A stretch of DNA of 64,000 bases from Grammothele lineata. Lineage: Eukaryota > Basidiomycota > Agaricomycetes > Polyporales > Polyporaceae. Made by a program: the position numbers and the translations under genes. Positions 17,588 through 42,001 of this stretch are shown here, in pieces; position 1 is the first letter of the stretch; each line of letters opens with the position of its first letter. The DNA lies in assembly GCA_002150815.3 (NCBI GenBank), contig NDFF03000320.1:496001-560000 (forward strand). The letters are read 5' to 3'. The notes beneath the pieces are model-generated. The model did no database searches and was not told the origin of the DNA. It was given only the letters and a program-made list of their open reading frames with translations.

Positions 17588-19839
17588 TCAAAAAAGCGTG
17601 CATCGGCGGTAGTGTCTCGACACTGCCGACTTGATCTCCCCCGCAAGAACAGACTGCACAATGAGCTCGCCACACAGGTAGCAAAAATGCCTGCGATACG
17701 AATGAGCACGTTCATCCCTCACATATAGATGCTAAGTACTGAAGTACTGACCCGTTGCACCCTGGAGCCATGCACGTCATGTGGTTGCAGCCATCGATCT
17801 TCTCCGCGGGGGTCTGACAGCCTAGAAAACGCACGGCGCCATAAGCTTCAAGGGTCAGACAAGCCAAAAACACTAGCAAGGACTTGCCAGGACAGTGCTT
17901 CCATCCACGCGCGTTCATCAGGTGCTTGAGCTCCGACGAGCCATCACACGAATGCTTCGGGCCGCCAATCTCAATCGCTTGTGAACAGAGCTTGCACCAG
18001 GCGTAGCCGCACCCGGGGAGTGGGCAGACAATCTCTTGCGTCTCCTGATACTCGGTCTTGTCCACAAAAAGCGTCTTAAGACATCTGCAGCGATGGAGGG
18101 TGTATTAACGGCCGATCATCTTGTTTTGATTAGGAAAGAGACGCACTTCCGGCAGTGGATGATCGTCGAGAAGCGCGCGAGCTGCATCTCGCTGTATACG
18201 TCGTACTGCTTGTCCGTCAAACCAAGGTGCTGGATCATCATGTCTTCAAGTTCTACATCGAATTCTTTAGTCACTCGACGAATTCGTCACGAGGGACGGG
18301 CGATCGGCTTACGACTTGGGTCCGAATTGCCCTTGCCCGCTGTGCAAGTGGGGCACAAGATCGGGTACCGGTGCTGGTCGATGATGGAGACTGCGTACTG
18401 CTTCATGCATGGCCGGCAGAACCTGTGGCCGCAGGGCATAACACGCGCGACGAAGTCTTCTTGAAGACGATCAAAGCAGATCCCGCAATCGAAGAGCTCA
18501 GGTTGGACTGCCTGGAGCGCAAGGCGCTGGCTCTCGAGCTCGCGGCTCTCGCGGTCGAAATCGTGCTGGAGTTGCGCCGCAACGGGGTCAAATCCGACAA
18601 GACCAGGAGATTGTTGTCGATGTTGGTACTGGCGGGACTGGGTTGAGCGGCCATTGATAGGTGGGTGGGGAGATAGGGCATGCGGTACGCCATTTCGAAC
18701 GGGCGGCGTACCGATGGGACTTTGCGAAGATGGCTGCAGGGCTGATGCTGAAGCGATCGACGGCGGCCCGGGGCTGGATCTCGTGCTCTTGGTGGCTGCC
18801 GCGGCACTTACCTTGCGCAATTGCCGGTTCTCCGCCTTCAGTCGCTCGAACTCGTCATCGAGCTCGAGAATTTTGTCCTCCAGATCCGACACCTCTTCGT
18901 TCAGGCGCTTGTTGTCCCCTTCGAAGCTCTCGTTGTTCGATTCGAGCTCGCGCACGCGAGCCTGCAGGCTGAGCACCTGAAGGCTCGCGTCCAGCGCGAG
19001 CTCAGCCCATTGGCGGCCAGTCGTAGCATTGTTGCGCGCGACGAAGATATCCCCGGAGCAGTGAGCGAGAAGTTGGGCCTGCCACTGGACGGTGCTGTCG
19101 GAGAGGAGACGTTCGTCGTAACGAAGGAGGCTGGAGAGATATTCGGCAGTACGGGCGGCGGAGTTCTTGAAGATGAATGCCGCGCCATGGGGGTGTTTGT
19201 CCGGGCGCGGGTGGGAGTCGAATATAGCGAAGAGTTCGGAGGCCTTATTCGACAAACAGAAACAGGCAATAATCTCCGGCGGACGGGTGATAATGACGCA
19301 TGCCGACTTATTTTCCTTCTTAGTAAAGTTTGCGAGTTCGCTGTGGGTGTATAGAAAGAAAATATCAGCGACTATGCGTAATCGACAGAGTGCTAACTCA
19401 CGAGAAAAGTCTCTGGAAATACGGCAAGCCTGCTTGCCCATAGTCCGATCGCACGAGCTGAAGAGACTGCTGGAATACAGGTGCTTTATATATATCATCG
19501 ACAGCGAGATGGGCCGAGTTAGACCACATTAGGCATGGCCTCAGAATATCCTTGAACGATGCTAAGCTCAGTGTTGTGGTATTTTCAGGTGATGAAGCGA
19601 CTAACCTCAAGAAACGGACATTTCACAATCTCCTGCACCAGCTGCGTTGTGCCCAGTCCCGACGCATGAAGACCGAGAACGATTCTCGCACAGTTCAAGG
19701 CTGCAAGTCCACAGGCGGATACGCCGCCGCCGAGCTGGCTATACTGGCTGCGACCGTGATGGGTGACAACGTAGTCTGGGAAATAGCCCGACACGATCTT
19801 GGGCACGTTGGGAGAGTGGTCATAGTCATGGCCCGACAT
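17588..19839 (-). CDS. RBR (RING-IBR-RING) E3 ubiquitin ligase with N-terminal cysteine-protease-like domain
   Basis: Exons complement(join(17588..17690,17752..17821,17888..18084,18147..18264,18313..19340,19402..19561,19620..19839)), 631 aa. The C-terminal half is a complete RBR: RING1 from about C412 (CGICFDRL, CGHRFC, CPTC), IBR (HCRKCLKTLFVD, CPLPGCGYAWC, HSCDG) and RING2 (CPGC, GCNHMTC, HFCYLCG). The Cys of GCNHM (about C586) corresponds to the thioester-forming cysteine of RBR ligases. A Leu/Glu-rich coiled coil precedes RING1. The N-terminal about 240 residues have QLGGGVSACGLAALN (C43) and FAIFDSHPRPDKHPHGAAF (D168, H170), a Cys...Asp-x-His arrangement suggestive of a papain-fold deubiquitinase. 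The intron 17822..17887 has a GC donor (GCAAGT). A 78-nt in-frame GTAAGT...CAG segment (about 18733-18810) is kept as coding but could be an alternative intron. Start at the ATG at 19839; an upstream exon is possible. Confidence 0.88.
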
Positions 19840-20500
19840 CTTCAACTCGTAGTCGACGGGTTTGCGAAGGAATCCGAATGTATCGTGGGGCCAACGTCGT
19901 TCGACGAACGATTGGCTTTGGCGCTCTAGTCGACTCCGGCTGGAGAGAGAGCTGGTGCTGCGGTAGGACTAAGAACATCATCATACCGCTCAGGAAAGAG
20001 ATGCGCGAATTGTAGTCATAAGGGGCGATGACAGGCAGTCGCATGCCTATCTCAGCAGAGGACCCTGCGCCGGTCGAGGCTAGGACAAAGCAAAGTTCAG
20101 ACTGACCTCGAGGCAGGATCCAGGCGTGGCTTGTAGACTGCAGCGTGCAGTGGCCCTGGGTGTTTGGAAGGCGCTCGTGTACGAGTTAGGCGAGACACGA
20201 GGCATGTGACCTCCGCGGGGCGCGTTCCGCGACTGCCACAGACGGCGTGTTGTTGCGTTCTCGTCTCTCAGCTCGTCTCTCTACCACGTTTAGCAGACTT
20301 CCTTGAACCTTGCAACGGATATGGGGACTTCAGCGCTGTACTGTGTGCTGCGGCAGAAGCACGTCTGCACCCTAAAATCTCAAGGACAGCGCCGTTGGAA
20401 GAACGACGCAGGACTGACTCCGTGTCTCATCCGCCTCCGTCCTCATTTTACCGCTGCACCATTTTCAATCCCCCTATCGCCGTCCTCTCCATAGGCCAAT
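19840..20500. promoter_or_regulatory. Shared divergent region, RBR ligase / giant GTPase A
   Basis: 661 bp between divergent start codons. No supported gene. An open frame on the minus strand upstream of the RBR start is in another frame and shows no family features. If the two genes are co-regulated, the signals would lie here. Confidence 0.35.
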
Positions 20501-23500
20501 ATGACCACACCCTCCGACTTCAAACCTCCGGATCCTGACTCGCGATCACTCGACATAGTCACACGGATCCCGGGTTTCTATCGAATCCTGGACCTCATCT
20601 ACGAGTCCGGGACTAGCGGTCTCGGTAAGCTGCACCGTCCCGTCTACATCCCCTCTTGCATGGTTTGACTCCTCACGGTATCAGTCAGCAAGATAGTTAT
20701 CGATCAAACGTCTCTTGGGGATTTCGTCAATGACTTGTACCCCGGCGCATACCGTTCTATCACAGAGCTCGATTTCCGCTCCCTTGACCGGAGATTCATC
20801 AAGCCTCTCGGGCTACATGGAAGCAAAAATGCACTCGTCGATTTCTTCATAAGCCGTGATATCATCGACGCGAAGACGTGAGCTAGCCTTGATAACGTAC
20901 TTACGTTCAAACTGATGTTGGAGCGATCAGGGGAGAAGCATTGCTTCAGCAGGTGGATGATTCTGGTGATCATGGACGACCCTTTCTCCGCTCTGGAATG
21001 TATTTTCTCGATCACAAGGCTTCGGGAAAGCTCTATGTTGTCTACTGGCCTGAGCACTCTACGTGGAACGATGACGCCCCTCCTGCGGTCCGCAAGAATA
21101 GAATCACATTTATGCGGTTATTCCCAGTTATTTCCCTGTGACCGTTTCGCCTGTCGTTGATCCTCGTTATATTAGGTACCTTACGAAAATCACGGACCAG
21201 GTTGTATGCTTGCTCTCAAACGAGCATGCCAAAGCCATCGTCTTTCAGCAAGACGAAGATGTTGAATCAAACAGTGGAAGCGATGAGAGCGACGAGGAAG
21301 AAGAGACTGACCGGTTATACACGTTCAGTGTCAGGAAAACGAATGAGCAAGAAGAAGGAATCACGTGCTGGACTGGTTTTGTGGTAACGCATTGTTCAGT
21401 TTCGCATTGGTATACATGGATCTAAGTCTGGAACGACTGGCAGCTTCGCAGTCCCCATCTTGACGTCAAGGCTGTGCCACAGGATGCAGATGTTGATCCT
21501 GGAATGTTCCATCCTCGCATTGTGCACGGAGAAACACAACAAGCGGTCCTGACGGCTGCATTCGTTCCCTCTTCGCACAAGAAACAGCAAGTGGTAGAGG
21601 CTCATTGCTCCGAAGTACGCCTTCTCGACATCCTGTAAGTGTGTATAGTTGTATGGGCTGGGATCAAAAGAGCTTAATCTCCTCGCAGTCGACGTCAGTC
21701 GATTCGATTGAGCGAATCGCTCTCCACGGAAGCCTTGGATCTCATCTTCGCTGACAAGTTTGTGACTTATCTCAAGGGGGATGCTTGTGGGATTGTCGAC
21801 AAGTACAAGGAAGAAGTGGCACATATCAGAAAGCGAGCCACCGAGGATCGTACCAAAGAAATCAACGACACGGCCTCTCGCATCGACGCCGAGTCACGGG
21901 GGCTCAACGAAAGTATCAAGTGCCGGCTTGTCGCCATCGTCATCGACCATTTCTCGTGAGTGGTAGAATTCGCTCTACTGTTGTTTGTGGTCTGATCAGT
22001 GACAGAGCCCTTACTCGAGAGAAGCTTCTGGGATCGCCTAAACCCGATCCCGGGCTCGATCCGACGCAAGTCCCTCTTCCTCTCGATGAAGGTACGGAGA
22101 ACACTATGTAATTCAAGTGCCGTGTCTTACTTCTTTTCAGAGTATCTTCGCGATCTTTGTGAAATGCATCCGGACATCGAAGCTCTGCTTGCATCCTGCC
22201 GCGATATGACGGGTCTCACCGTTGTGAAGACGGAACAGTTCCGGTCGCTTAAGAAACAGCTGTTGACTCTCCGCTTCTTGCTAAACTCAGACCCCGACTT
22301 CGACGACAGCGAACGCGAGCGGCTGATCGACTCTGTTCTCCACGGTGGTCCCCGAAAGTCTCCGGCCAACGAAAAGAGCGGACGACTACGCAAATTGTGG
22401 GAGTATCTCAGCCTATCCTCTTCCACCAAATCGCCAGAAGACAATTCCGAGATCCCTGCCGATGCTCTCAAGGTCGATGATGCGGAGTTCTTGTCTTCCC
22501 TTCCTGGCATGGTGGAGAAATTCCCTGCTCTTGCCGACCTGGCTGACGCTACCTTCCAACATGCTCACAAATTTCTGCGCACTGAGATCAAGCTGAGGGC
22601 CGAGGATATTGCCAGGAAGATTCGCAAAATCCAGCGCGAACTCTGCAAGGAGCAAATCATACGTCACGTTGAGATCCACCAGAATTCCCAGCTGGAGCGT
22701 CTACGGACAGAGCTCTTGACTAAGCTGAATCCTGTTTTGTGCAAGGCTCACGCTAAGTCAGTGTGACTATGAGTTGTCGGCCTGTGGCTTACGGCATAAT
22801 TACCCAGGAACCTCACTATAATCCAGTCACTGGATGTACAGCGACCCTCTTGTGAGCACTTGTTGAAATCGTAGAGACGAAAGATTTTTGATGTTACCTT
22901 CAGGGGCGAGTAAGGCCTATAACGTTGGGCTGACTCAGGAGTCCTTCGCGGAGCCTCAAATGCAGTACACTATCCGACCCCTCGAGTTGACAGAAGATGA
23001 TACCAGCCGCCTGCAAGCAGATCCTCGCCATGTTCCTTCACCTCTCCTCCGTGATCAATCGTCGTGCTCTTTCAATCTCCCCCCAAATACCGCCATCGTG
23101 TGAGATTTACTCAGTTTATATCCGCGTCTGTGATGGTAATACTTATGGCCTGGTCTAGGTTTATCCGCCTCCTCCCCAAATCCCGCTGTATTATCATAAC
23201 CTGTGATGACACCAAGAACTATTTTGTATATGTCTCGGACTTGGCCAGTTTGGATTCTACTCTCGCGCAACGTCCTCTCAAGACCCTCTTCCGTGAAAGA
23301 ATGGGCGAGCACATTCTCATGGCTTATGACGAGAACAAACGCATTTTGGCTATGTGCGGGACTGTGCAGGTGTCTAAACTCCTATCTAGATGGGACGTAG
23401 CCCAGCTAAATCGTTTTACAGGGTAAAATCAATCCTCAAGTCCATGCTTTGATCTTTGACGAGACCTACAACACACTTCAAGGATTCGGAAGTGCTATGG

Positions 23501-26500
23501 AGATGTGGTACGATACCCCAGTGGCCATCCGGTACTTCGAGTTTGTACGTGGGAAAGAGGAGTTGCTTGTGGTCAACGATCGCGGCTGCGCACGGATTTT
23601 CTCCCTTGTCATGCAGAAGTTCAAGTAAATGGTTTAATAACTTCAAGTGCCAACCACTAATATCCTGACTCTGCATCTAGGCCTGCAGCGATTGAGAACT
23701 TGGCTCCGTCCTCGTCAATCTTTTCCACACCCGATGGCTCATGCTTCCTCGCGCTTGCTCCTTCCAGCGGCACCGGCGATGGTGCACAATCCCTGCGCGC
23801 CTACCACTGGTCCAGCTTTGGCTCTTCGGAGGGCATCACAGTCGATCTCGGCATCTCGATCTCCAATCCCGATGAGTGCGTCGTAACATCGCTCATGTCG
23901 CGTGGCAACGTGCACTTCCTGTCTTTCGACTCCGCTGCTCGGGTCGTACGATCGGTCGCATTTGCTATCACTAGCAAGGTCACCCAATACTTACTCAACG
24001 AGAGCGGTGCAACGCATCTGGAGGGCAAGCAGCAAACCACTCGCCATAATTGCGTTGTCGATTGCCACGCAGATGTATGGACACGATTCCCCGTCGTCCC
24101 AGCCATTCGACGGGAGACTATCACCACTTCCCGTGAGCCGCGCGCCCTCTATTTCGCCTCCGATATCCCCCAGCTTCCGTTTGCGGCTCACTTCTCAAAG
24201 TTGATTGACGAATTCAAACGTACTACCCGCAAACCAGCTGAGAACGAGCTCTCATCCATCCTCGTCAAGTATAGCACCCATGCTGCCTTCCAGGACGAGT
24301 GTTCCTACAACTTGTCCGTTTTCAAGGCAGGGGAATGGCTCGTAGAGCTACTATGCTTAATTCCTATCCACATCGCAGTCACCAGGGATAATCGCTTCGT
24401 ACCCCTTAAAGACGGTGTTTGGTCGACCGAAACTGAGCGTGCACTCCTCGGAGCTGACGTCCCGACACTCGTCAATGCCATCACATTTGGCTGGTACGAA
24501 AGTATCTTCCAGTCCTATATGTCCACTAAGGTAAGCATCTCATTTTTACGTCCTGCTGCCTGCTGTCTGTGTGGCTCACCCCACCTGAATCCCTTCAGCC
24601 CGTCAAGGTCGTCTCCTCTATGGGTACGGCTCTCGTCATTCATGCCAAAGGGTTGACAGATTGTTGATCATCGATGGACATAGGCGAGCAATCAGTTGGC
24701 AAGAGTTATGCACTTAACCACCTTGTCGACACATCTTTCGCTGGCTCCGCAATGCGCACAACAGAGGGCGTGTGGATGTCTGTCACTCCCACGAATGAGG
24801 CGCTCATCGTTGCGCTGGATTTCGAAGGTGCGTCAGCACCACCTCTCAAAACCTGCTTGCCTGTGGAATCGACCCTCCCTTTTTCCAAATTTCAGGAGTT
24901 CATAGTATCGAACGTTCGGCCCAGGAGGATATGTTGCTCGTCCTGTTCAACACCGCTATATCTAATCTTGTAAGTAGTCCTATACCGAGTCGGTCTCTCG
25001 TGGTCCAGATGTATTTTCATAGGTTCTCTTCCGTAACAACTACGCTCTTTCCCGCGACATCACCGGCCTGTTCCAATCATTCCAATCGTCCGCGTCCGTG
25101 CTCGACCCCGATGCCAATCCAGAGCTGTTCAAGTCGTCACTGATGGTGATTATTAAGGCAAGTGTTATAGTTGGGTACCTGGTGGTAAGGCATTGATCTT
25201 ATCCACGGACTGTAGGACGTCCCGGACTCTGACCAGATTGAGATCAAGAAGGAGTAATTTGTCCACGAATGTCTAACGGAAGCATAAATTGATCCATGCT
25301 ACAGGTTCGAAAACAAATTCCGACAGATCGTCCAGACGGAACAGGACATGAACTTCATCTCGCGCTTGCATCGGGGTCGTGACATGAACATTATCCCTTG
25401 GCCCGTGATAGAGTCCAAGCGGTTCTACACACTTTTCAAGACGGTCAGGAAGCGACTAGTTCAAGAAGATAGCACACATCCGCCGGGGGCTGTCTTCCTC
25501 GATACCGTCAAAACGCTCATGGCGAAGCTGAAGGTGAGCCGGCCCTTTGACGCCCACAACATTGTCATATCTCGAACGACAACCACGCAGGCAAACGATT
25601 GGGGAGCAATGTCGCGTACGTTCCAGAGCTTGGCCGCAACGCACGCAGAATCATTAATCAGTACTCTCGGATTCTAGAAACCATGGCCGCTCGTCGGGTT
25701 CAGCTCTTGCGGTCCATACTTCCGAAAGCTTTTGCCTTCGGTGCCGAGGAGCTCGAGCCCTCATTTGAACCCCTCAAGGTTTGCAGCCTTACCATGTTCT
25801 TACTACATTACCAATACTCACGCGGATAATGGTAGGAATTTGATACAAAGAATGTCATCAACGCAGAAGACATCACGCATATGTTGTTCCTTGCAAGTGA
25901 CGGACCTCCAGGCCAGCCGTCGAGTCGCGAAGACATGCTCAAAGTGCTTTGTGACTCTTGGGGCCAATATGATCGACGCTCCGCCTGTTCCGAGCCGACA
26001 TGGAAGCAAGATCTTCAAGTATTCCTTGACGAGATTGTCCGCGCGCGGGATCGACATGTCAGGGCGTGGCTCAATGCCAATACATCTACATATGGGACCA
26101 AGCACGCCGAGATCCAAGACTTGTTCCGGCATACCGATAATGTTGTGGATGAGCTGAAGTCAAGTGTTCGCTTGTGCAGCTTCCATTGCGACCAGTGCAG
26201 CCTTTCCTGTCTCCTTGGGCGGAACCACGACGGTGAACACGCGTGCCGCACCAACCATCGCTGCGTGCATATGTGCCAGTACAAGGAGGCCGAACATGGC
26301 GACGCCGAGCCATGCGGACTTCCGTAAGTGTTGCCGAGCATCCTCGAAGCCGCTATCGATACACTGACTATGCTTTCAAATAAGTGCGGGTCACCCAGGC
26401 ACACATCTGTGAGCAAGATTTGTTCCTCTTTGCGATGATGTCTGACAATCACTGGGTCCTTTACTTCATCAGCTGTGAGGTGACAGAGCATCTCTGTGGC

Positions 26501-29327
26501 CAGAAATGCAAGTTGAGCGACAAGAAAGGGTGTCAGACAGCGTGTGTGAAGGTATGTTCAAGCAAACTCAGTTTGCTATATTGATATACAGCTCATCGTC
26601 GCTGTGCTAGTCGGTCGACCACGAGGACCCAGAACATGTGTGTTCCGCGACCGTGCACGAATGCGGTTCGGTGCGTCTCTATGGTGCATACTAATTATAT
26701 TGTGCAGTACGTTGATGCATTATTCAGCCTTGCAGCCTCTCCGAAGTTTTGCTCCAGGATGGGAGTCGTTTTTCTTGCACTGGGCTGTGCAGGATTCCGA
26801 GGCAAGTGCAGTCACGAATTTGTCGATTGCACGGATCCTAAACTTGCTTATGATAGCAATGACATTCATCAGGAACATCGATGCAGCAACTCACAATGCC
26901 CAATCGATTGCCAGCTCTGCAAGAGTCTCTGCTCCGAGCATAACCATCTTCATGGTTTGGACCTTTCTGCTGTACACCTTTGCGGGTTCGTACCACATTC
27001 AATAGCCTGTGTTCCATATATCTGATTATGGCCACCAGGAAAGAGCATACATGCAAAGCTCTTTGTGCAGCCCAAGGGGTCTGCAAGATCGAGACTACCC
27101 CCCATTCGATAGAAGCAACATTCGTCGGACGTCATGAGAGCTTCCAGTATACCAAGGTCAGTATTTCTTACTACCAGCGCGTCAATGTATTTATCGACGA
27201 TCATATAGTTTACTCAAGGTGATACGCATCCAGTCTCGCTGTATTTTTCTTACAGTACTAATTAGTGTTATTCGCCCTAGTTTCACGGCGGCTTCAGTGC
27301 GATATTAGCATTCCTCCCGGGGAAATCGTCCACCAAGGGTCCCACTCGCATTCACGCGATCCCGACACGTTCCACTTTTGCGACGAGCAGTATGCGTGGC
27401 TCCTGTGGATCATACACTTGGTATGCTTACGCGTGATATTCTCAGATGCCCCAACTGCTCCTACGTCTGTACCTTACCTCTAGGTAATACCGATGTCAGG
27501 CTTATTAGTTGCCTCGCTAATGTTCCTGTACCGTAGGGCATGTCCAGGAGCACGAGACTAGTCACGGGTCAATGTCAGCGACTCAATGGACTGTTGCCGG
27601 TCCTGATGGAACAGCGCTCGAAGTTGACGGCCACAAGTTTGCGAACAACGACAGCGGTGCGCCCATGATGTGCTCGATGTACTGTCGCTCCTTGGGACGT
27701 CACGTGCACGTCAATTTCTGTTGGACCTTGGATGCATCAGCCCCATGCGGTGGAGCTGAGTATCAGCATATCCGCACACCTCTGGAACCCCAGCTCGATC
27801 GCCCCAAAGATTGGGTTACGCACAACCTGTATTGGAGGCGTATTGGTATGTTTTACAACGGGTATTGCAAGCTTGATCTAACTGTGAATGTTTCTCACAG
27901 GTTTCAAGGGTGAGTCTTCCTGGAATTCTTGACGACCCCGGGTTTGAATTAACAATTTCTAGATCCCTACTCACAGGAAGATCAAGCAAACTTCGCCAAG
28001 TGGTGAGCATTGAGTAGATGATTATAACATCATATAGCTTACAAGAAATCGTAGTGATAGTATGTGCAGCGGTACGTCTCAACGCAGCAAGGAGACGGCA
28101 TCGTGCCTCATCTAAAATCATGTTAATTTCTCTAGGGCAGGAACATACATCCAATGCACACGGCGGTGCCGCTCAACCTTCCTACTGCACACTTCCGATT
28201 CTACACGCTCCTCAGTCTCAAGGTGACCGCGCTCTTGTTGGCAATGGGCTTGGCTACATCTCTAGGGATGGGCATGTATTCGAGTGTCGCAATCCTACAA
28301 TGATGCAACAGGCCTACCACGTGTCAGTACTTTGCTCATAATATCCAGGAACTCCATTTGACCATCCTCTTTCATTAGTATCTTTGTGATAGACCGGTCA
28401 GCTTTCTTTATTCCGACTTATGCGGCTTTGATGCTTTTGAACTGATCCTTTCAAATACTACTAGCTCGGGTTCAATGTCTTGCAATGATCGTCGTCCTCT
28501 CGGGCACACCGCAAATTCTCGGCTGATTCAGGTTGCCCACAATGATCGCCTTGGCGCGGTGTATTCCTCTTTACAAGAGTTTTGGGAAGAACGCGATCGT
28601 GTTGCTACGGCTGCTGGTGCTGTCCGCAGAGACGCGTATTCCATCATCATGTTCGACCACGAAGTCGACACTGTGATCTCCCACGACTTCGCCAGTGCTC
28701 CTGGTCAGCTGCTGAACGCTGTCTTAGCTTATCACGCGAGGGGAGGCACAAATTACGACCTAGCTCTGCAAAATGCTCAGCAATGCATGGATCTTCACTG
28801 GAGCACGGAAAGGTATGAATGTCGATTGAGAGTATATATAGGCCCCTGACAGTATCGGCTCCCTAGAGCACCTGTGATTATTTTCTTGTCCGACGGCGAG
28901 TGCCACATCTCAGACGGGGCCATGCGTGATCTCTGCCGGCGCGCAGTCGCTCTCGGGTATGGATATCTACAGTCTGTCGGCTCTCTAACTCGTAAGACTG
29001 ACCAACAATCTATCACCTAATAGGAGACCGCTCTCCTTCCACGCTGTTGCCTTTGGACCGAGTGTGGAACGACTACGGCAAATGGCACAGATTGCTACCA
29101 TGATCGAGAACGGGACCCCACCAGATCCCCTGCGTCCTCACGTGCCCTCGTCATATCACGCAGCCATCAACACTGTGAGTCTTCAAAGCGACCCCTCCCG
29201 AAGGGTAACGGCACAAAATTTGTGTACAAAACTGACGTTACTTTAGGTCCGTCTGGCAGAAACGTTCCTCGCGATCGCAGACTCTCTTGCGAAGCCTCGC
29301 GGGGCTCTCGTTCCACGCCGAGGATAG
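20501..29327 (+). CDS. Giant GTPase / Cys-His-rich / vWA protein, tandem copy A
   Basis: 41 exons, 2174 aa: 20501..20624, 20685..20877, 20931..21116, 21176..21383, 21444..21634, 21689..21955, 22006..22091, 22141..22756, 22808..22851, 22904..23099, 23159..23369, 23422..23624, 23681..24530, 24599..24623, 24684..24827, 24896..24969, 25023..25157, 25216..25253, 25305..25533, 25591..25615, 25678..25778, 25836..26323, 26385..26408, 26473..26551, 26611..26670, 26728..26801, 26857..26985, 27039..27156, 27209..27218, 27281..27389, 27446..27483, 27537..27845, 27901..27909, 27963..28002, 28055..28071, 28136..28322, 28379..28396, 28465..28812, 28867..28956, 29024..29174, 29247..29327. Domains: an unassigned N-terminal module with helical segments; a region rich in beta-type motifs (about 650-1120, AYHWSSFGSSEG); a GTPase domain with G1 GEQSVGKS (1134-1141), switch TTEGVW, G3 DFEG (1179-1182) and KD (1251-1252), as in the GBP/VLIG/Sey1 branch of dynamin-like GTPases; a Cys/His-rich array (about 1490-1915); a vWA domain with MIDAS DRSGS (from D1951), GGT (T2047) and LSDGE (D2077). 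Two introns use GC donors. No breaks seen. Function unknown. Confidence 0.88.
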
Positions 29328-30458
29328 GAAATATCTGTGCATTGGTAACACCTCCCCCACTTCGAATAATGTGTCTACCTCCGAAACGCTTCGCTATGCA
29401 ATTCCTCCCAGTACTGTCCCGTCCTATCTTCCCTTACTCGACTTACCGCAAATCCGTTGTATTGATTGTATGATTGCTGCTCATGTGTGGAATGATATTC
29501 CATTGAGTGTTTGATTCGTATTGTACCGTTCGAATGGCTGAGTTTCGTGCTGTGCTGGTGGAAGTTACCGTTAATTCGCCACCCCGCTGACAACGTCTTC
29601 GATACTCGACATTAGAGCCTCACAACAGCTACATGGGTATTATCGAAGCTCTGGCGGTTGGCACTGGGTTTCTGACGGTGGCTTACCCAGCTATTGAGCT
29701 GCATCTGTCTATCCCACGTCATGCTCGTTCCAAGACGGCTCCGATCACGGGAGGAAGCGGAATGTTTTGCAGCGATTGCGCAAGGAACGAGCGACATGCT
29801 CTCGGATTCTCGCAACGGCGTACCGTGAACCACGACGATTCGATATCGCGCGACTGGCGTTGTCGTGAGTCGGAAGCATAGCTACACAAAATTCAGGGCC
29901 ACTCCCGGAGAGCGGCTGCGTGAGGCTCGCGTGAGGCCCCGGGGTGTAAGGGGAAAGGGAGAGGGAAGGGAAGACAGTCGTCACTGCAGACGCCACAGCC
30001 TGCCCAGAGGGGAGATGCAGGACTAAGGCTGTAGGGGATGAGGTTGAGGTGAGGGGCGACCCGGAGCCTGCGATACAGCCACAGCTCCAGGGGCCGATAA
30101 GTGCTGGGCAGTGTTAATGGAGGAGGAGGAGGGTGATTTTGACCGGCATGGCGCATCGCGGCGGCGCATCGGATGACAGACGACCGTGGACGGGCGGATA
30201 GACGCCTGTCTGACGCGCCATCGTGACAGTGTCAGTGACACGGCCCGGCCGACGCGTCTTACCAGCTACCGCAGCTCACTGTCTCTGGGTGTCCCTTGCA
30301 GTTGCTGCACTCCCTTGGGGAGAACTCTTCTGCCCTGCCCTCTCAAATGTCATCCTCGATCGAGCAAGATGGTGCTGCGGGTGAGAAAATGAAACAACTC
30401 GGTACGCCTTATCTTGCGCCTCCGCGACGCGGTCCTTCACCCTACCCCTCGCTTTACC
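29328..30458. other. Intergenic region between tandem giant genes
   Basis: 1131 bp between the stop of copy A and the chosen start of copy B. Short open frames exist (for example 29633-29881) but none has family features or a splice partner. It should contain the copy A terminator and the copy B promoter. An alternative upstream ATG for copy B at 30347 opens a short frame that is not needed to explain the gene. Confidence 0.45.
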
Positions 30459-33400
30459 ATGTCCTCACCACTGGGTGCTACCTTTGCGCCTCCCAGTACC
30501 TTTCCAGATGTGATTGGTGAGCTCGAGTTGATTATTTGCATTCTCGGATCTCTCATCCGCCTAATTCAAGCTGGACCTATAACCCAGGGCAACCGATCAG
30601 AGTCGCCGACACGCCCCGTTCCAAATGCGTTGCCCGCTGAGCCCTATACCGTAACGCACCCCGGCAGTGATATTCAGCGGCCCAAGACCGAAGCCTCGAA
30701 CAACAACGAGCTTTCAGGAGAACGTCGAGGTCGTGGTAACAACAGCGCATCTCTTGAGTTGAACCCACCAGACATCGAGAGTCCACAACGCCCCCAGAAC
30801 CTTGATCTTGCGCTGAAGATTCCGGGATGCTATCGAGTCCTGGACTTGATCCACGACCAGGGTTCTAGCGGCCTCGGTAAGAATACGGACCTACTTGATT
30901 TGGCATTGTGTTGATCTAGGCTTCCTTTAGTCGACAAGATCATCATCGAGCAGGATGCCCTTGGTCGCTTCATCAATGACATCCGTCCAGGGGCGTATAC
31001 CTCGATTACCAAGGTCGATTTCCACGCACTCGATCAACTCGAGATCAAGCCGCTGGGCATTTATGGAAGCAAGCCGTCCATCGTGCAATACCTTCAAAAG
31101 AAGGCTTTCGTCAATGAAGAGATGTACGCTAAAGAAACTTGGACAAACGCACCTGCTGACCGTTCCACAGCGCCACCGACTTGTTATCACCGATTGACGC
31201 ATCAACAAGACGAGGACGGCCTTTTCTGAGGCCTGGCATGTACATCTTTCACCCTCAATGTGATGGCAGCAGCTTCCTCGTGGTATTCTGGCCGGAAGAC
31301 ACGACGTGGGACGATAATTCGGCGTCTTCTGTTCGCAAGAACAGGATTACCTTTATGCGGTATGTAACGAACCAGGGTAGTCATCGTATTTCAAGTCCCT
31401 CATACGCGCCAACAGGTATCTTACAAAGATCGCTGATCAGGTGGCATGCCTGATCTCGGACGAGCACGCCGAAGCAGTCGTATGGCGACAGGATGAGTCT
31501 CGTAGTGACGATGAGAGTCTAGACGACGAGGACTCCGACCGACTCTTTGCTTTCGAAGTCTCGAAGACGAACGAGCAGGAAGAAGGGGTGATATCGAGGC
31601 CTGGCTTTGAGGTCTGTAACGGTGCATGACCTGATTTGGGTATTTCTCAACGTCCTGCGTCTTAGATCCGCACTCCCCTCGCCATCCCGAAGACTGCCGT
31701 AGGCGTCGATACAGTGACGCTGGATATGTTGCGCCCTCGGCTCGTACGAGGTGAGACTCAGCAAGGTATTCTTACTGCTACGTACGTCGCCGGTCACAAG
31801 AAGACCGAGACGAAAAGAGAACGTCTTTCTGAAGTAAGGCTAAGAGACATATTGTATGTTAGTACTTGTACGGCGCCAGAGCTGTTACTGACTATCTCCA
31901 CCCTGGCAGGAAAAGAAGTGTCGTTCGTTTGGGCAACGAGTTGTCGTCAGATGGGCTCCGTGTCTTGCTGCAGCTCGGGCTGAGACACAAAGAATCTGGG
32001 GCTGTCGCAGAGTATGAGCAGGCCCTGCAAGTCGTCCGCCGAGAAGCCAATGAAACTTTGAAGCAAGAGCTGGACCAGATGATAACCCGCATCGACGGAG
32101 AGTCGAAGATCGTTGAGGCCAATATGGTGGAATATCTGACGAGTGTCGTGATGAAACAATTCCCGTCTGTAAACAGTCTCGCATCATCACGACGAGAGCC
32201 TTAACATTTCACAGGACTCTGCTTCAACGCTCCGTGCCTGAGAACCTCGACCCCTCTAATGTTCCTCTGCCCCTCGATACCGGTACTAGCTTCTATAACC
32301 TCTACATGGGATTTCAAGCTAATTGTAACACAGAGTACATACCAAACCTTTGCGCGATGTATCCGGAGATTAGTACTCTGCTTGATGAAGCTCCCCGCCG
32401 TCCCAAGCTCAAGGCCGTCAGTTCCGACGTCTACAAAGGGCTCAAAGAACGCATCCTCACTCTTGATTTCCTCCTCTCGGCTGAAACTGGTTTGGATACC
32501 GACCAGCGCACAGAACTTGTGAAATCAACGCTTGAGAAGGGATACAGGCAGTCCTCACAGGCGCAGAATGGCCCATGGTTCGTGAAGGTTTCGATGAAGG
32601 CTGTGAGCTTCCTCTTCGGCTCGTCCGAGTCTCCCCGGACCACCGTCGAAGTGCCCAAAGACGTCACCAACATCGACGACGCAACATTTATGGCTCAGAT
32701 CCCGGTCATTGCTGATCGCTCTCCGGCTCTCGTCGACGCACTCGCCAATGTCACCGACCTGGCACAGAAACACTTCCGCGATAACATCAAGAGAGAGTCG
32801 AAGGACTTCGCTCGCAAGATTCGCAATATCCAGCGCAACGCCTGTCGGGAGCAGATCACGCAGAAGGTCAGGATCAATGAGTCAAACAAGCTCGAAGCGC
32901 TTCACGCGAGTATCTTGCACACGCTGCGATCAAGTTTGGGCGAGGCCTCTGCGAAGTAAGTTGTACATGGCGCCATTTTCATCTTTTCTCAAAAGTTCTG
33001 TTCTAGACAGACTGTTACATTGAAATCCGTTTCGTCGGACACATCGTCCTTTAGCTACAGTAAGGTTATCAAAATATCGACTATATTTGCCGCTGAATTT
33101 CTCACATCGTTAGATTCTCAACATTGGTACAGCGCTACCTGGGTGGAAGAGAATCTGACTGATCCCGAAATGATGTACACTCTCTACCCTCTCGAGCTTG
33201 TACAAGATGACCACCAACGCATGCAGGAAGACTCCGGACACATCCCAACGCCAAAGATTCACTCCCAATCTTCCGTGTCATTCAGCTTGCCTGTAGATAC
33301 CTCCATCCTGTGAGTATGACCTGGTGTAACCTTTCGAGACAAGGATTGCTGTTCTAACTCCAACGCAGATACTGCCACCTCCTTCCCAAGGGATTTTGTC

Positions 33401-36400
33401 TTCTCGTAACGCGTGACCGTTCCGGAGATTGTCAGGTATACGCCTCGCAAATGGCGGGTCTCAGCAGTGCAGTCCACCGGCAAGCCAAGAAGCCGTTGAG
33501 GAAAGACAAGATTGGAGATCACTTCCTGTTAGCATACGATGAGACCACTCGCATCCTCGCCGTCTGTGGTTTCCTAGGGGTAAGCTGCTCTCATGCCCTA
33601 CGTGGCGCAGCACTGACTACGTGTACAGCGGGAGAATCTTCTCCAGCTGCATACGTTCGAGTTCGACGAAACATACGCTTCGCTTCAGGGCAGAGGGACT
33701 CCCGTCAACTTAAGCAGCTGGTATGACTCTGCTGTGTCGATTAAGCATCTTGAGTTTGTCAACGGAACGGAAGAACTCATGCTCGTGGATGAGCTTTGTC
33801 GAGCTCGGATATTCTCCCTAATCACGTTGCAATTCCGGTAGGTGATCTCATTGCTGCTGTGCCCTACCAAGGCTTAATATTATCGCCTCCGATTCTAGCC
33901 CGGCAACTTGCCAGTTGACGAGTAGGCCACGCTCAGTTCACTCAACTCCGGACGGGTCGTGCTTCATCGCCGTCGACGACGCTACTGACAGCAATGACGA
34001 AGTCTCTCTTTGCGCCTATCACTGGTCGAGCTTTGGGTCGTCCGAAGGTATCAGAATCAATATTCCCAAGGCGGTCAGCTACGGCTGCGTCGTCACGTCT
34101 TTCCACTCCCGCAGCAATGTGTTTCTGCTCGGTCTCGACTTAGACAAAGGAACAGTGCCATCCGTTGCGTTCACCATCACTCGTCGGGTCACGGAATTTA
34201 CATTCAAGGAGAGAGGTGGTCCAACCACCGCCCGTCAGCAGCAGATGACCCGCAACAACAGTATCATCGACTGCCACTCGGAAGTGTGGAGCCGATTCCC
34301 AGTTGTGCCCGCTGTTCGGCGGGAGACAATCGTTTCGGGTCGCCGCGAGCCTCGTTCACTAGTATTCGTATCCAACCTCCGCCACTCCCCTTTCGAAGAC
34401 CACTACGCTGCTCTCATCGAAGACTTCGAGCGAACTACTCGCAAACCGGTCGGCGACGAGCTGAAGGACGTCCACATCGTCACGGTGAACCACGACAGTT
34501 TTTTGGAGGAAGATGCTTGTGAACGCTCCATGTTCTGCGCAGGAGAGTGGCTCGTTGAACTTCTCTGCCTCATCCCAATCCACATTGCTGTCACTCGGGA
34601 TAACCGCTTCGTACCGCTGAAGGATGGTATCTGGTCGGCCGAACTTGAGAAGACGCTACTGGGTGCAGATGTTGCGAAGATTGTCGACTCGATCACCTTC
34701 GGGTGGTATGAGTCTCTCTTCCAGTCATACATGGCTAAGAAGGTTGGTCCCATCCGCACGCTACGTTAGGCATGTACTTGCAACTGACTAACACGCTCTC
34801 CAGCCCGTGAAGGTAGTGTCTTCAATGGGTACGTGGTCGGTTTCGTGCTAGCAGTAATCACACTACTCATGTTTGGGATAGGCGAGCAATCCGTAGGCAA
34901 GAGCTTTGCATTGAACCACCTGGTTGACACGTCCTTTGCTGGTTCAGCAATGCGCACAACCGAGGGAGTGTGGATGTCTGTTACCCCGACCAATGATGCG
35001 CTTATTGTCGCTCTTGATTTCGAAGGTATGTCAAATTCACACTGATCAATTAAATATTGTTTTTAACACCAGCATCAGGCGTCCACAGCATCGAACGCTC
35101 TGCTCAAGAAGACACACTGCTCGTTCTATTCAACACGGCAATCTCTAATCTTGTATGCCATGACTTGAGCTCGTTTTTTGATGGTGCTCACATCTTCATT
35201 AGGTACTCTTCCGCAACAACTTCGCGCTATCTCGGGACATCACAGGTCTCTTCCAGTCGTTCCAGTCTTCTGCGTCTGTTCTTGACCCTCAAGCAAACCC
35301 GATGCTCTTCCAGTCCACTCTCGTTATTATCATCAAGGTCAGATTGGTTGCACGATGGGCCTTTTCTTACTTATCTATCCTGACTTTGATCTCCGTAGGA
35401 TGTCGTCGAGTCTGATAAGAATGAGATAAAGAAGGAGTAAGCCTTTTGAAGGAATACGTGTTGTCTCATGCTCACCTTTCCTCAAGGTTCTATCTCAAGT
35501 TTCAGCAGATCGTCCAAGCAGAGCAAGCTATGAATTTTATCTCTCGCTTGCATCGCAACAGGCTCGACATTGTTCCTTGGCCCGTCATCGAGTCGAAGCA
35601 ATTCTATACGCTTTTTAAAGCCATTAAGAAGCGTCTTGACCAACAGCCCGTGACTCACGCAGGCGGTGCTATCTTCCTCCAGACGATGAAAACCCTCATG
35701 GCGAAGCTGAAGGTATGTACATGTCCACTGCAAGTAGAGCAGAAAGGATGGCGGATATTGATTAAAATTCATAGGCGAACGACTGGGGTGCAATGTCGCG
35801 TAAGTCGTGTTTGAAGTGCCGATCATACTGGAAGACACTGACACGAATCCATCTCGTTTGTTAGAAAATCTTGCTGCCCACCGAGCACACCTCCTTCTGA
35901 CACTCCTGCCGAAGGCACTTGCGTTTGGCGCAGCCGAAGTTATCCCCGATTTCGAGCCATTGATGGTGTGTCATATCGCTCTCAGAGTTGGGTCCCGGGA
36001 TGGCGTTAAGGAATCGATTGCTTTGCGTCAGGACTTCGACTCAGCAACGGTGATCGAAGCTGCAGACACTCCGGCTCGTCTATTTCTGGGTGACATCGGT
36101 CCTGCAGGCCAGCCTGGGAGCCGAGCCGAGATGATTCAAGCGCTCAGCGGTTCATGGGAACAATTCGGCGAGCGCTTCTCGCTCCAAGAGCCCGAGTGGA
36201 AGCAGCAGCTCCAGGCCTCTTTGGATCATGCAGTTGATCTCCGTTCCGCCCACGTCCGGATCTGGCTCGACGCCAACACCACCAAATTCGCTCCAAACCA
36301 TGCCGACGTGCTCGATCTGTACCGGAAGTTTGAAGAAGTCACCATCGACCTCAAGTCAAGTGTTCGGTTGTGCAGTGCGCAATGTGCCGAGTGCAACCTC

Positions 36401-39400
36401 TCGTGCGTCCTTGGACGTCACCATGATGGTTCCCACGACTGCGGTACGGATCACGACTGCGTGCATTTCTGCGAATTCGAAGGCGCAAGTCACGGTAGTT
36501 CTGAGCCATGTGGTCTTCAGTCAGCTCATCATCCTTAGATCCTGTGCTGTTATACTCACTGTTCTATTTCCCAGAGCCGGTCATCCTGGAACACACCTGT
36601 AAGTTCATGTCCTAGCCCGAAGGCTTTTGAGGCTAGAACACTGTAGTGACGCTTGTGAAATAGATGTGACGTTTCAGCGCATCTCTGTGGAAAACCATGC
36701 AAGCTCACAGGCAAGAAAGGCTGCCAAGATGCCTGCACAAAGGTCTGTCCATATTGACAACCAGTACAAATGGCTCTGTGTTTCATGCTTATTATATCAC
36801 TAGGTGGTTGATCACGAAGACGAAATCCATATGTGCTCCGCAACAGTGCACGAGTGTGGCATAGTATGCGCATCTGATAAACCTCGGTGCCGACAGCGTG
36901 GTGACATCATGTGTTCTCTAGCCCTGTAGTTTGTCAAACATTCGTCTTCACAATGGGCGGCCATTTTCATGCGCAGGATTCTGTAAACTTGCCAGGTATG
37001 ATTTTGATGAGGCTGACAGGGCCACTCACTACGAGAATTTATCTGCTGACTGTACCCGTTTCAGCGACATCCCACACACTGAGCATCGATGTGACAATTC
37101 CCAATGCCCCGTAGACTGTCAACTGTGTAAACGGTTGTGCTCAGAACATGATCATCTTCACGGTCTCGATCCAGGCGCAATTCATCTCTGCGGGTACGCA
37201 TTTTATGCTGTTTGCCATAGATGGAGAACAGTCATACATCTAACTTCATAACAGGCAGGATCATGCGTGTCAAGCCCTGTGCACGGCGCAGGGCATTTGT
37301 CAGATTGATACAGCGCCACAGTCGGTTGAAGCAACCTTCACTGGCCGGCACGAAAGCTTCCAGTACACTAAGGTCATTTCCTTCGAACTACATCCTGTCC
37401 GATGTCTCAAGTACTGATTGATGCTTGACGGATTGTAGTACACGCAAGGTGAACATTGAAAGTCTCTTGCAGCATATCGCATCTCTCACTAACCTTTCTC
37501 ATTAGTGTCAAAGCGCCTACCTTGTGTCATCACTATTCCAGCAGGGGAAACAAAGCATGACGGCGCTCATTCCCACGACACAGGTCCAAGAACGTTCCAC
37601 TTCTGTGAAGAGCGGTAAGCTATAATTTGAATCTTTGAACAGTGTTGTTGCATCTTGCGGTGCTCATCATGGAAACATTCACTTATGCAGATGCCCTGAT
37701 TGCGGCTATTTTTGCACCTTACCGCTAGGTAAGTGATACCCCAGATCTACTATCCGCTACATACTATCCCTTGTCTCAATGTCTTAATCATGTCTAGGGC
37801 ACACTCAGGAGCACGACACCAGCCACGGCTCAATGGCAAGGACCAAGTGGGCTGTCGACGGTCCTGATGGAACTGCGCTCGAAGTCGATGGCCGGAAGTT
37901 CGGTGCAAACGACGAAGGCGCGCCAATGCTTTGCTCGATGTACTGCAGATCCCTAGGACGACATGCACACATCGACTGGTGCAGGACTGATCCCCAGGTA
38001 GCCTGCGCAGGGCCTGAGCATGAGCACATCAAGACACCCATGCAGCCTCAGCCAGCTAAGGCCAAGGATTGGATCACTCACCACATGCACTGGAAACGCA
38101 CTGGTACATACTCCCTCTAGTCTGCGTGTCTGTGGTTCAATATCTAATGTTTCTCTATAGGGTTCAAAGGTAACCAAGCATATCACCATTCCGAGTCCGC
38201 GGGCGCTTCATTGACAAACTACGTCAGACCCGTATCCTCAAGAAGATCAAGCAAACTTCGCGAAGTGGTATGTCATGATACGAGTCGGGATAATACTATT
38301 AGCTATAAGCACTCACCATGTCTATAACTTAGCGATAAGATGTGCAGCGGTAAGATTCTTTCATATAGATCATGACAAGACAGAAAAAATGAACGACCTT
38401 GTATTCAGGCCCGGAACATAATGCCACTGCGAATATGGCGGCCCAGCCGTCTTACTGCACTTTACCGATGTTGCATCCCCGCCAGCGCCTTGATCAGGCT
38501 CCGGCTAATGGCCTGGGATATATTTCTAACGACGGACATGCGTTTGCGTGCAGAAACCCCATTGTCCTGCGACAAGCTTTCCACGTGTACGTGCATGAAC
38601 CTTGAATGATTCAGCGACAAACGTATTGACCGGTGTGTGGCAGTATGTTCGTCATTGACAGGTATTGCACTGAGATTCTCCGTCAAATGTCTGCTTTGGC
38701 TCACCCATCCATTCTAACTTCCGCTGCTACACAAGGTCGAGCTCCATGACTTGCAATGACCGTCGCCCCCTGGACAACACGCCCACTACACAGGCGATCC
38801 GTCGTACCCACAACAACAGGCTTGGTGCCGTTTACTCGTCACTGCAAGGATTCTGGGAGGCACGACACCGGGCTGTCGCCGCTGGTGCTGCTGCCGGCGC
38901 AGCTCGTAGAGACGCTTATACCGTCATCTTGTTTAGTCACGAGGCCACAACAGCCCTGTCGCATGATTTCAACAGTACTCCGGCACAGCTCCTGAATGTC
39001 GTCCTCGGTTACCGGAGCTCCGGTGGAACGAATTTCACCGATGCCATAGCAGCAGCGCAACGCTCCATGGAGGCGCACTGGAGTACCGAGCGGTATGATG
39101 GCCGATAACGAGACCAGTTCATACTATTAACATGCGCATGGTACATAGCTCCCCTGTGATCATCTTCTTGTCCGACGGCGAGTGCGGGATTGGAGATGAA
39201 GTCATGCAAGATCTCTGCAGACGATCCATCGCTTTAGGGTATTGACAATCATTTCCCGTCAGCCGTTGTCAATCACACTGATATTTTTCAATACAGGAAA
39301 CCACTGTCCTTCCATGCTGTGGCTTTTGGGCCAAGCACGGGGCAGCTTCGACGGATGGCACAGATTGCCGCCGACGTTGAGAGTCGTGCCCCGCAAGATC

Positions 39401-39588
39401 CCCTTAATCCGCATGCGCTGGTCCCTTCCTCCTATCATGAGGCGTTGGACACGGTACGTACCAACACTCACGAGATGTCGGTCTAGGACACTCACTCCCG
39501 TATGCTTTAACAGGTACGCCTGGCAGAGACCTTCCTGGGCATTGCCGACTCTCTTGCGAAGCCTAGAGGCGCCCTTTTCCGTGGATAA
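30459..39588 (+). CDS. Giant GTPase / Cys-His-rich / vWA protein, tandem copy B
   Basis: 42 exons, 2233 aa: 30459..30516, 30601..30876, 30931..31123, 31171..31359, 31416..31611, 31666..31853, 31910..32164, 32215..32282, 32334..32955, 33007..33059, 33114..33309, 33369..33579, 33629..33837, 33899..34742, 34804..34828, 34882..35025, 35079..35152, 35203..35337, 35399..35436, 35487..35712, 35775..35799, 35865..35965, 36032..36519, 36575..36598, 36664..36742, 36804..36863, 36922..36995, 37065..37193, 37255..37372, 37439..37448, 37506..37614, 37691..37728, 37798..38103, 38161..38169, 38228..38267, 38333..38349, 38409..38586, 38644..38661, 38736..39092, 39149..39238, 39297..39453, 39514..39588. Same architecture as copy A with nearly every intron at the same place. 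G1 GEQSVGKS is at 1195-1202; MIDAS DRSSSM starts at D2007, with GGTN and LSDGE also present. Unlike A it has about 70 extra, probably disordered N-terminal residues and GT donors throughout. The GTPase core is almost identical to A; other parts look roughly 50-65% identical by eye. Confidence 0.88.
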
Positions 39589-40546
39589 CCTGTACGCCCG
39601 CTTGTGGGAATGATGGAGCAGTGACGGAAGTTTGGTGGGCCGGCTTGATGAGCACGAATGATTTCCTGGTATTATGACGCGTATATGTATTCCTGGACAC
39701 TTCAGTGGACAGGTCTTGGGGGGTAACATTGTCGAATCTTTGTATCAGATCTGGCGTATATAGTAGAAAAGGCATACCGCTGAGAACGACTTGCCTTGTA
39801 AGGGAAGAAAATCATTCACGTGAACATACCCACGATCATGTGCGGGCGATACGCTCAAATCGGACCGGAGGATTACTCAGCTTTGACGCTGAACTGCCGC
39901 CCGCTCAGCGCCGGTCGGATCGGGATCGGACTACTGAACGTTTCACGGCCGGAACAAGTCGATCTGAAGCTTGTCCCGACTCTTTGGCTTGGAGTTTGCT
40001 AGAGGAGGTTTACGAATATTGGGCCACACATTGCTTTGTAGCATTTTGTGGTAGGTGAGCTACGAGATAGGTTGGGACACGGTGTTTGTGTGCTATAGCT
40101 ATAGTGGCTGCTTGAGACCACAGCATTCAAAATTCTGGACACTTCAACGTTTGACTGCTCTGCGTTTTGTGGAGAGCATCTGTCGATTTTGCGTTCGCTT
40201 GGCCAGCAGTACTTAAGTGCACCCGCACTCTATCTAGGCTTGTAGTGTTTTCTCTACCGTGTGATGAGCACCTTCGAACACCTTCAACGGATTCCATCCT
40301 CGGATGTGCTGGCTCCGGAGGGAATTGCTGCAGCCTGCTCGCATCGGTCGAGCCGCCAGTGCCAGGCTCTCGGCCGTGTAGTGTGCACTGCTGACATTGC
40401 ACCCCTGGTAAAACTGCCAGATGATATGGCCGTACTGGCTTACTGTCTGAATTGCCAGGCACTCTGGTTGCAGAGGAAACCACATCCAACTCAGTGAAGC
40501 TTGAAGCTTGAAGGTCGGGCCACCGATCAGGAAAAGACAACACTCG

Positions 40547-40597
40547 GGGCGCTCGGGAGTCTCGAGAGCCACACGAGCCGGCGAGACTCGAGCGCCC
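40547..40597. repeat. Inverted repeat / hairpin
   Basis: Left arm 40547-40564 (GGGCGCTCGGGAGTCTCG) and right arm 40582-40597 (CGAGACTCGAGCGCCC) are complementary over 16 bp with one 2-nt bulge, separated by 17 nt. GC-rich, so the hairpin would be stable in DNA or RNA. Function unknown. Confidence 0.8.
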
Positions 40598-40629
40598 TGC
40601 CCCTGCTCGTGGCTGCTCAAGAGCGCTCA

Positions 40630-40643
40630 GGCCTCAGGCCTCA
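40630..40643. repeat. Short tandem repeat (GGCCTCA)x2
   Basis: Two perfect copies of the heptamer also found in three copies at 324-344. Recorded because it recurs; it may be chance in GC-rich DNA. Confidence 0.7.
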
Positions 40644-42001
40644 GGACGATTGCTTGATGACTGTGGCCGAGCAGTCAAACAGCCTGAGGTCGGACTATTC
40701 CTTGGTTCGCCTCAATCAGGCGCACGCATCACACAATAGAAGTCATCTCAGAACAATGCATTCGTAATGGGACGATCTGATGGGCTATATCATGGACGAA
40801 ATACTGCAACGCGCGGAGCAGGGCACCATCGCCTCACATCTGTCCACACAGGCTCTTTCAATCCCGGTAGCCGTATACCACACACTCCATGCCATACAAC
40901 CTACCAACTAGAGTACCCTATCTCATAGCGCTGCCTGCCGTGTAGCTCGGAATCGCCGGGAGTTGCAAGCGGACGTAAGCGGCTGGGTGGAGAGCGGCGT
41001 GCGAGAAGTAGGCGGGTGGAGAGCAGCCAGGCGGAGAGTGATGTGCATGCGAAGAGCGATGCGCACAGAGAGGCGTGCGCGTGGGTGGAGAGCAACGCAT
41101 TCTTGAACAGCTCTGTACGTGAAGACGAGTACTTATGTTCAGATTCGCCGGGCAACACGCGCAATAGGACATGACTTATTAAGGGAGAGACATTGTAGGC
41201 GGCACAAAAGGAACTGTGGGGCCTAAATACGACTGGACGTTGCAAGAGGTACCTGCCGAAGCGGGCGGTCCTACTGTGATTGCTGAAGGCGAGACATGCG
41301 GAAAGTGATACAGAAAAAGATGAGAAGGAGGGCATTGGGGGGAGAGGGGACACGGGGTGACTTACTTATGATGACTCCCTACCATATGCACGAGTCTTGT
41401 AGGCGGTGTACTCTGTATGCTTACCGAGAGGATGAGTTCCGTATCCAGGGAAGGGGTTTTGAGCTTGGAGGTCGCTTCAAAGTAGATTGCCCGAAGATGT
41501 TGATAACTTAGTTTTGAAACGAGCGCGAGAGGACGAGAGACAAGACGGAAGCAAGTCGAGCCTACGCGGCGTGGAGGAAAGCCTAGGCGCGGCGGAAGCG
41601 GAAAGACTCTAGGAGAGACTGAGGGCAAGACCAAGATACGTCAGCAGACCAGATCCGAAGCATCGTAAGTCTTCTTAAGCGGCGGCAAGACAGGGAGTTA
41701 GAGGAGTGGAGTGGAGGTCGCTGTCGCCGCCAGTGAGGCGGCGAAATTCGAGTGGTCTCTGCTCGGCATAATCGAGTCCGCTCGCGCGTGCTCGAGAGCT
41801 GTGCTTGCGTCTCGCGCGCCTCGGGAGCCTCGCAGGGGTCGCCCGAGCGAGCACTTTTTCCTCCAGTGATCGGCGCTGACTCTCGAAATTGTCAGCTCCT
41901 GTGCAGACGATGTTCAAGTCACATTGAGCAACAGCAGAGCTGCTGCAATGCTCTGTGAGCCTGAGCACATCATAACCTCGCAATCCCTGAAGTCTGAATT
42001 A

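Follow-up and report, generated by a model that had tools for sequence, protein, structure and literature searches.

The window analyzed here is the whole 64,000-nucleotide stretch of the polypore Grammothele lineata that lies on contig NDFF03000320.1 (positions 496,001 to 560,000) within a 41.8 Mb assembly of 252 contigs (GCA_002150815.3). Near its center are two very long genes, each of which encodes a large GTPase followed by a cysteine/histidine-rich (Cys/His) region and a vWA domain. As a first-pass annotation of the window had proposed, gene 1 (g1; 20501–29327) and gene 2 (g2; 30459–39588) form a tandem pair on the forward strand. Both models have 41 exons and one terminal stop, and they encode 2176 and 2261 amino acids, respectively. 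The stop-to-stop frames of 20000–30300, compared with those of 29900–41000, gave a co-linear series of exon-like matches, which guided a purpose-built small gene finder and manual finishing. The introns are 45–76 bases long (median 57), and 39 of the 40 g1 introns are matched in g2 at the same place and phase. This agreement is partly built in because the paralogue guided the finishing, although most of the shared introns were already present in a first pass made without guidance. The 5′ end of g2 (30459 to about 30740), including the start, is uncertain; the remaining model is accompanied by close relatives in other polypores.

The two proteins are identical at 1211 of 2146 residues. The proportion of synonymous differences (pS = 0.785) is saturated, agreement at four-fold sites is 25–37% in each of the blocks, and pairs of matched introns resemble each other no more than mismatched pairs do (0.591 vs. 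0.583). The proportion of nonsynonymous differences (pN) is 0.281 overall, 0.061 over motifs G1–G4, and 0.465 in a variable stretch. The saturated synonymous sites, dissimilar introns, and low pN argue against gene conversion and decay and support the exon models, and both genes look functional as judged from these substitution patterns. Conversion of the GTPase was ruled out in particular since its synonymous sites are saturated too. The possibility raised in the first-pass annotation that several separate genes are present is contradicted by the shared introns and purifying selection, which also rule out a pseudogene reading.

As had been described, the same domains stand in the same order in both proteins; the alignment includes both Cys/His halves. 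In g1, the N-terminal module (residues 1–240; 20501–21452) is followed by the variable stretch (residues 300–640; 21630–22850), which is the least conserved part (dN 0.73), and by a beta-rich region that is probably a WD40-like propeller (approximately residues 690–990; 23050–24119). The GTPase domain (residues 1127–1390; 24528–25853) has the motifs GEQSVGKS (from residue 1136), TTEGVWM (1161), DFEG (1181), and IIKDV (1251), and the helical bundle behind it (residues 1391–1495; 25854–26168) matches GBP1 chains jointly with the GTPase. The Cys/His region (residues 1496–1945; 26169–28314) and the vWA domain (residues 1946–2176; 28315–29324) complete the protein. In g2, the N-terminal module (30795–31674) and propeller-like region (33260–34328) were located by alignment to g1, and the GTPase (34740–36049), which together with its helical bundle spans approximately residues 1214–1580, the Cys/His region (36365–38578), and the vWA domain (38579–39588, its start set at the base following the Cys/His part) follow.

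The Cys/His region contains approximately 70 conserved Cys/His positions, and the Cys and His positions of g1 hardly vary in an alignment of 43 homologues that covers fungi, plants, algae, and dinoflagellates. Sequence searches of the PDB gave no convincing match to this region, which was not folded and searched alone. The g1 vWA domain matches Pfam VWA_2 (42.8 bits, cut-off 27), and the metal ion-dependent adhesion site (MIDAS; DxSxS, T, and D) is complete in both genes, as annotated earlier, with DRSGS, GGTN, and LSDGE in g1 and DRSSS, GGTN, and LSDGE in g2. By fold, the nearest matches of the vWA domain are TFIIH p34/Ssl1 and Rpn10, and the structure models show a vWA domain of the intracellular type. 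In an alignment of g1, g2, and the 116 of 120 listed mushroom relatives that are at least 1900 amino acids long, the MIDAS Asp is kept at 80–95% and both Ser at ≥95%.

Relatives were collected in three sets, each described from the best 120 matches listed. The mushroom set, obtained with g1 residues 1090–2176, held 637 proteins at E 1e-3 among 5220 candidates; all 115 named rows are presumably Agaricomycetes and are usually called “hypothetical protein” or “VWFA domain-containing protein.” The core-profile set, from a search of the core profile against shorter proteins (263 at E 1e-5 among 7996 scored), adds Glomeromycotina, the chytrid Rhizoclosmatium, and the dinoflagellate Durusdinium. The Durusdinium set, searched from a Durusdinium protein (best 120 of 168), comprises dinoflagellates, gymnosperms, ferns, a moss, liverworts, a lycophyte, a red alga, green algae, oomycetes, chytrids, Geosiphon, Stereomyxa and Pelomyxa (Amoebozoa), and an acoel, with seven lineages looked up. 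The family also has members in Schizophyllum commune (P0107) and Ceratodon purpureus (P0245). No Ascomycota or flowering plant was found among the named rows of the three listings. The search of fungal genomes suggested in the first-pass annotation finds relatives in fungi, although the family is not confined to them, and the architecture is eukaryote-wide and no fungal invention. Prokaryotic and viral candidates from pattern scans, which reach close relatives only, comprised 42 stretches of genome contigs and 23 of viral contigs, none of which was confirmed. For three homologues, the matches from PADLOC and NCBIfam were no more than weak or partial.

Domain profiles cut from the mushroom alignment detected the GTPase in all 119 new proteins of the Durusdinium set, one Cys/His half in 117 and the other in 118, the vWA domain in 94, and the N-terminal module in 59. 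The corresponding counts among the 116 new and mostly partial proteins of the core-profile set were 115, 107 and 98, 63, and 35. The core of GTPase, Cys/His halves, and vWA is complete in 119/120 mushroom, 55/116 core-profile, and 92/119 Durusdinium proteins listed, and its order is invariant wherever it is complete (119/119, 55/55, and 92/92). All seven profiles, i.e., the core plus the N-terminal module, propeller, and pre-GTPase part, were found in 114, 2, and 37 proteins, respectively, always in order. The N-terminal module had been called new; it is present as described but is not confined to fungi, as it also occurs in plants, in one red alga, and in one amoebozoan, and the pattern GxY...W...N...RYL is kept in most of 12 aligned sequences from mushrooms to conifers and Galdieria. 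Some shorter mushroom relatives end in or ahead of the Cys/His region; P0230 and P0216, for instance, with approximately 1630–1660 amino acids, retain the N-terminal module through the GTPase but have no vWA domain and little or nothing of the Cys/His region, reflecting either natural truncation or split gene models. Several members carry odd or misleading names (P0138, TRIP12; P0180, cytochrome P450; P0326, VPS13A; P0351, E3 ubiquitin ligase).

In a core tree of 38 rows, a single branch sets the 19 fungal rows apart from all others (100/100), and the same holds for seven plants (100/100), four oomycetes (100/100), and three dinoflagellates (100/99), while the two amoebozoans do not group together. 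The tree is unrooted and compatible with largely vertical inheritance since an early eukaryote. The protein P0194 from the chytrid Rhizoclosmatium globosum lies inside Agaricomycetes beside Rhizoctonia (98/96), unlike two other chytrids, which may be due to gene transfer, contamination, or a long-branch effect. In a 30-row mushroom tree, g2 groups with Ganoderma, Dichomitus, and one of the Daedaleopsis copies in a set of five rows (98), whereas g1 has a long branch (0.75 vs. 0.32) within an 11-row polypore set. The duplication thus appears to be old within polypores, and the pair would be a retained old duplicate in which g2 is the conserved copy and g1 the faster one. Matches listed in the mushroom and core-profile sets include at least seven clusters from Imleria badia, at least five from Pisolithus marmoratus, and at least four from Suillus lakei, and those listed in the Durusdinium set include up to ten from Cryptomeria japonica; the listed sequences were clustered at 90%, and the counts may be inflated by gene models that are split or duplicated. 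Near-consecutive locus tags in Daedaleopsis (1158351/1158354), Abortiporus (796658/796662), Geosiphon (007413/007419), Ceratopteris (35G015100/015200/015400), and Cryptomeria (SUGI_0690960 to 0691410) suggest clustered copies in several kingdoms.

The g1 GTPase scores 25.4 bits against the Pfam model of GBP (cut-off 21.1) and so contains a GBP-type large GTPase domain, while it stays below the cut-offs of RHD3 (33.1 bits, E 5e-8, cut-off 42.4) and of URGCP on the VLIG side (19.6 bits, cut-off 55). The earlier assignment to a dynamin/GBP/VLIG type accordingly stands on its GBP side and not on its VLIG side, and “VLIG/GBP-type” is a statement at the superfamily level only. URGCP_GTPase matches occur in 17/17 proteins scanned whole, each below the cut-off (at best 42.4 bits vs. 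55 among 16 relatives). Precomputed database labels, for which the threshold is not shown, assign RHD3 to most mushroom-set relatives listed and URGCP_GTPase to many in the core-profile and Durusdinium listings, which leaves room for a broad grouping with those families. Within the family, QSxGKS is the dominant G1 variant. As g1 and g2 miss a tested feature of each of GBP, RHD3, and VLIG/URGCP, they represent a separate and apparently undescribed family.

GBPs have approximately 600 residues, a helical effector domain at the end, and in some cases a CaaX box; g1 and g2 are more than three times as long, have no CaaX box, carry the Cys/His region and vWA domain in the C-terminal half in addition to the propeller-like region, and differ from human GBP1/GBP2 in the P-loop (QSVGKS, with Ser at the arginine position of GBP). 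The top Foldseek match of both models is RNF112, of which the solved chains are truncated; we take RNF112 to be a RING fused to an atlastin-like GTPase, short and without propeller, Cys/His region, or vWA, and a RING was not found in g1. Atlastin, RHD3, and Sey1 share the GTPase fold, and Sey1 is among the profile hits, but a hydropathy scan of g1 and g2 showed no convincing membrane anchor. VLIG/URGCP proteins are also giant and are linked to the family by the matches and labels above, although we know of none with a Cys/His-vWA half. Rpn10 and TFIIH p34/Ssl1 are small subunits of stable complexes and contain no GTPase. Database entries named “VWFA domain-containing protein” or “Guanylate-binding protein N-terminal domain-containing protein” are family members with automatic names. 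No paper describing a giant GTPase-Cys/His-vWA family was found in the literature searched (most subscription journals and preprints lay outside it), in line with the earlier statement that no named fungal system has this architecture, and the words dynamin, GBP, URGCP, and VLIG are absent from PMC7159879, which concerns prokaryotic GTPase/vWA conflict systems. Both g1 and g2 are members of an ancient and apparently undescribed family of giant large GTPases in a superfamily common with GBP, atlastin, and VLIG/URGCP.

The likeliest job of these proteins, at somewhat less than even chances, is cell-autonomous surveillance directed at structures that are foreign or damaged. GTP binding is implied by the modeled fold and motifs, and GTP-dependent dimerization, which is established for GBP and atlastin, is probable. 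Upon GTP binding, the G domains may dimerize and the protein may assemble on a cytosolic target; the Cys/His region, as a putative zinc-bound arm, looks together with the vWA domain like a long target-binding arm, the vWA domain and propeller may grip the target or partners, and GTP hydrolysis would reset the assembly. Precomputed RING, B-box, SAM, or C2 labels occur on 9 of the 120 Durusdinium-set rows listed, and in four of these nine, scans found B-box domains (P0241), B-box and RING (P0256), SAM and RING (P0237, from the dinoflagellate Effrenium), and C2 with a SAM match below the cut-off (P0275). In such members, the same core may be coupled to ubiquitin, higher-order assembly, or membranes. 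A wider proposal, which is rather unlikely, is that the pair belongs to a eukaryote-wide family of surveillance GTPases that arose before fungi, plants, alveolates, and amoebae diverged, with a conserved sensing and assembly core, lineage-specific RING/B-box/SAM/C2 outputs, and clustered duplication in mushrooms, conifers, ferns, and acoels.

Several observations weigh against surveillance. The GBP P-loop arginine (YRTGKS) serves hydrolysis, and with Ser at this position in g1, hydrolysis must depend on a different arrangement. Evolution of the GTPase is very slow (mean commonest-residue frequency 0.94 over g1 1151–1200), which is more like a core cellular machine. Pfam assigned no zinc family to the g1 Cys/His region, so metal binding there is putative. 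The RING/B-box/SAM/C2 labels occur on 0/120 mushroom and 0/120 core-profile rows listed, and four relatives without such labels had none of these domains when scanned. Searches of the G. lineata genome with three parts of the genes (the exon preceding the GTPase, the GTPase itself, and the terminal Cys/His-vWA part) gave only the g1 and g2 loci among the best-scoring candidates. Patterns written from fungal rows are also incompletely kept among listed proteins of the mushroom, core-profile, and Durusdinium sets: G4 in 112/120, 101/115, and 27/119, and, among proteins with the vWA profile, the strict first MIDAS pattern in 68/119, 48/63, and 81/94, GGT in 104/119, 34/63, and 32/94, and SDG in 119/119, 50/63, and 58/94. 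Defense is a hypothesis that the clustered copies and domain fusions fit and that the very slow GTPase does not demand.

A rival that we regard as on the unlikely side is a quality-control scaffold, which would recognize damaged complexes or organelles and link them to ubiquitin/proteasome factors with no dedicated immune role. The closeness of the vWA fold to TFIIH p34/Ssl1 and Rpn10, the RING and B-box domains of some distant relatives, the slow GTPase with conserved Cys/His positions, and the close relatives of g2 listed from several polypores are consistent with it. The locus tags that hint at clustered gains of copies in several kingdoms, the missing Ascomycota and flowering plants among the named rows of the best 120 matches per listing, and the lack of a RING in g1 speak against it. 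The family data fit both quality control and surveillance and do not separate them. Membrane remodeling in the manner of atlastin/Sey1, whether by tethering, fusion, or fission, is improbable. It would agree with the atlastin and Sey1 fold matches, the sub-cut-off RHD3 match, and a conserved hydrophobic stretch directly before the GTPase (19-residue means of 1.55 in g1 and 1.72 in g2, from a hydropathy scan only), but this stretch forms a short helix and a strand, and no membrane helix, in the structure model of a homologue, the higher g2 value (2.08, residues 18–36) falls within the uncertain 5′ end, neither C-terminus has a CaaX box, and a long Cys/His-vWA half follows the bundle. Slightly less probable still is a self/non-self recognition gene of filamentous fungi, acting in heterokaryon incompatibility or programmed cell death, as the several copies in mushrooms and the variable residues 300–640 might suggest, since the family is also present in plants, dinoflagellates, oomycetes, and amoebae and the Pfam scan of g1 found no death-type domain. 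An artefact in which separate genes or decayed copies were falsely joined deserves almost no credence: the models are computational, but their single stops and shared introns, the saturation of synonymous sites under strong purifying selection, and the length and near-constant core order (119/120) of the mushroom relatives contradict it.

Gene prediction across the window beyond g1 and g2 was crude and merged genes. The divergent neighbor of g1 (18287–19528, minus strand) encodes a RING-finger (zf-C3HC4) protein with a coiled coil, which the crude model extends by a second cysteine-rich block; the extended protein presumably resembles a RING-between-RING ligase. Farther upstream are an SLA1-like protein with an SHD1 domain (10867–12990, minus strand; E 1.5e-30), which we take to be an actin/endocytosis gene, and the N-terminal part of a Sec7/Mon2/BIG1-type Arf exchange factor with a DCB domain (3374–4987, plus strand; E 2e-20).

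The family joins a GBP/atlastin-type GTPase to a Cys/His region of approximately 70 conserved Cys/His positions and an Rpn10-like vWA domain, with RING and B-box domains in some lineages. It appears to have gone undescribed, possibly because the proteins are long, come from intron-rich genes, and bear names that refer to a single domain. If the wider surveillance proposal is true, the family would be an unrecognized architecture of cell-autonomous defense beside NLRs and TRIM/GBP proteins and a system common to mushrooms and gymnosperms. If the proteins are defensive, the detection of intracellular intruders in mushrooms, mosses, and conifers would become directly testable, and if they act in quality control, they would still fill a large gap in the picture of eukaryotic cell biology.
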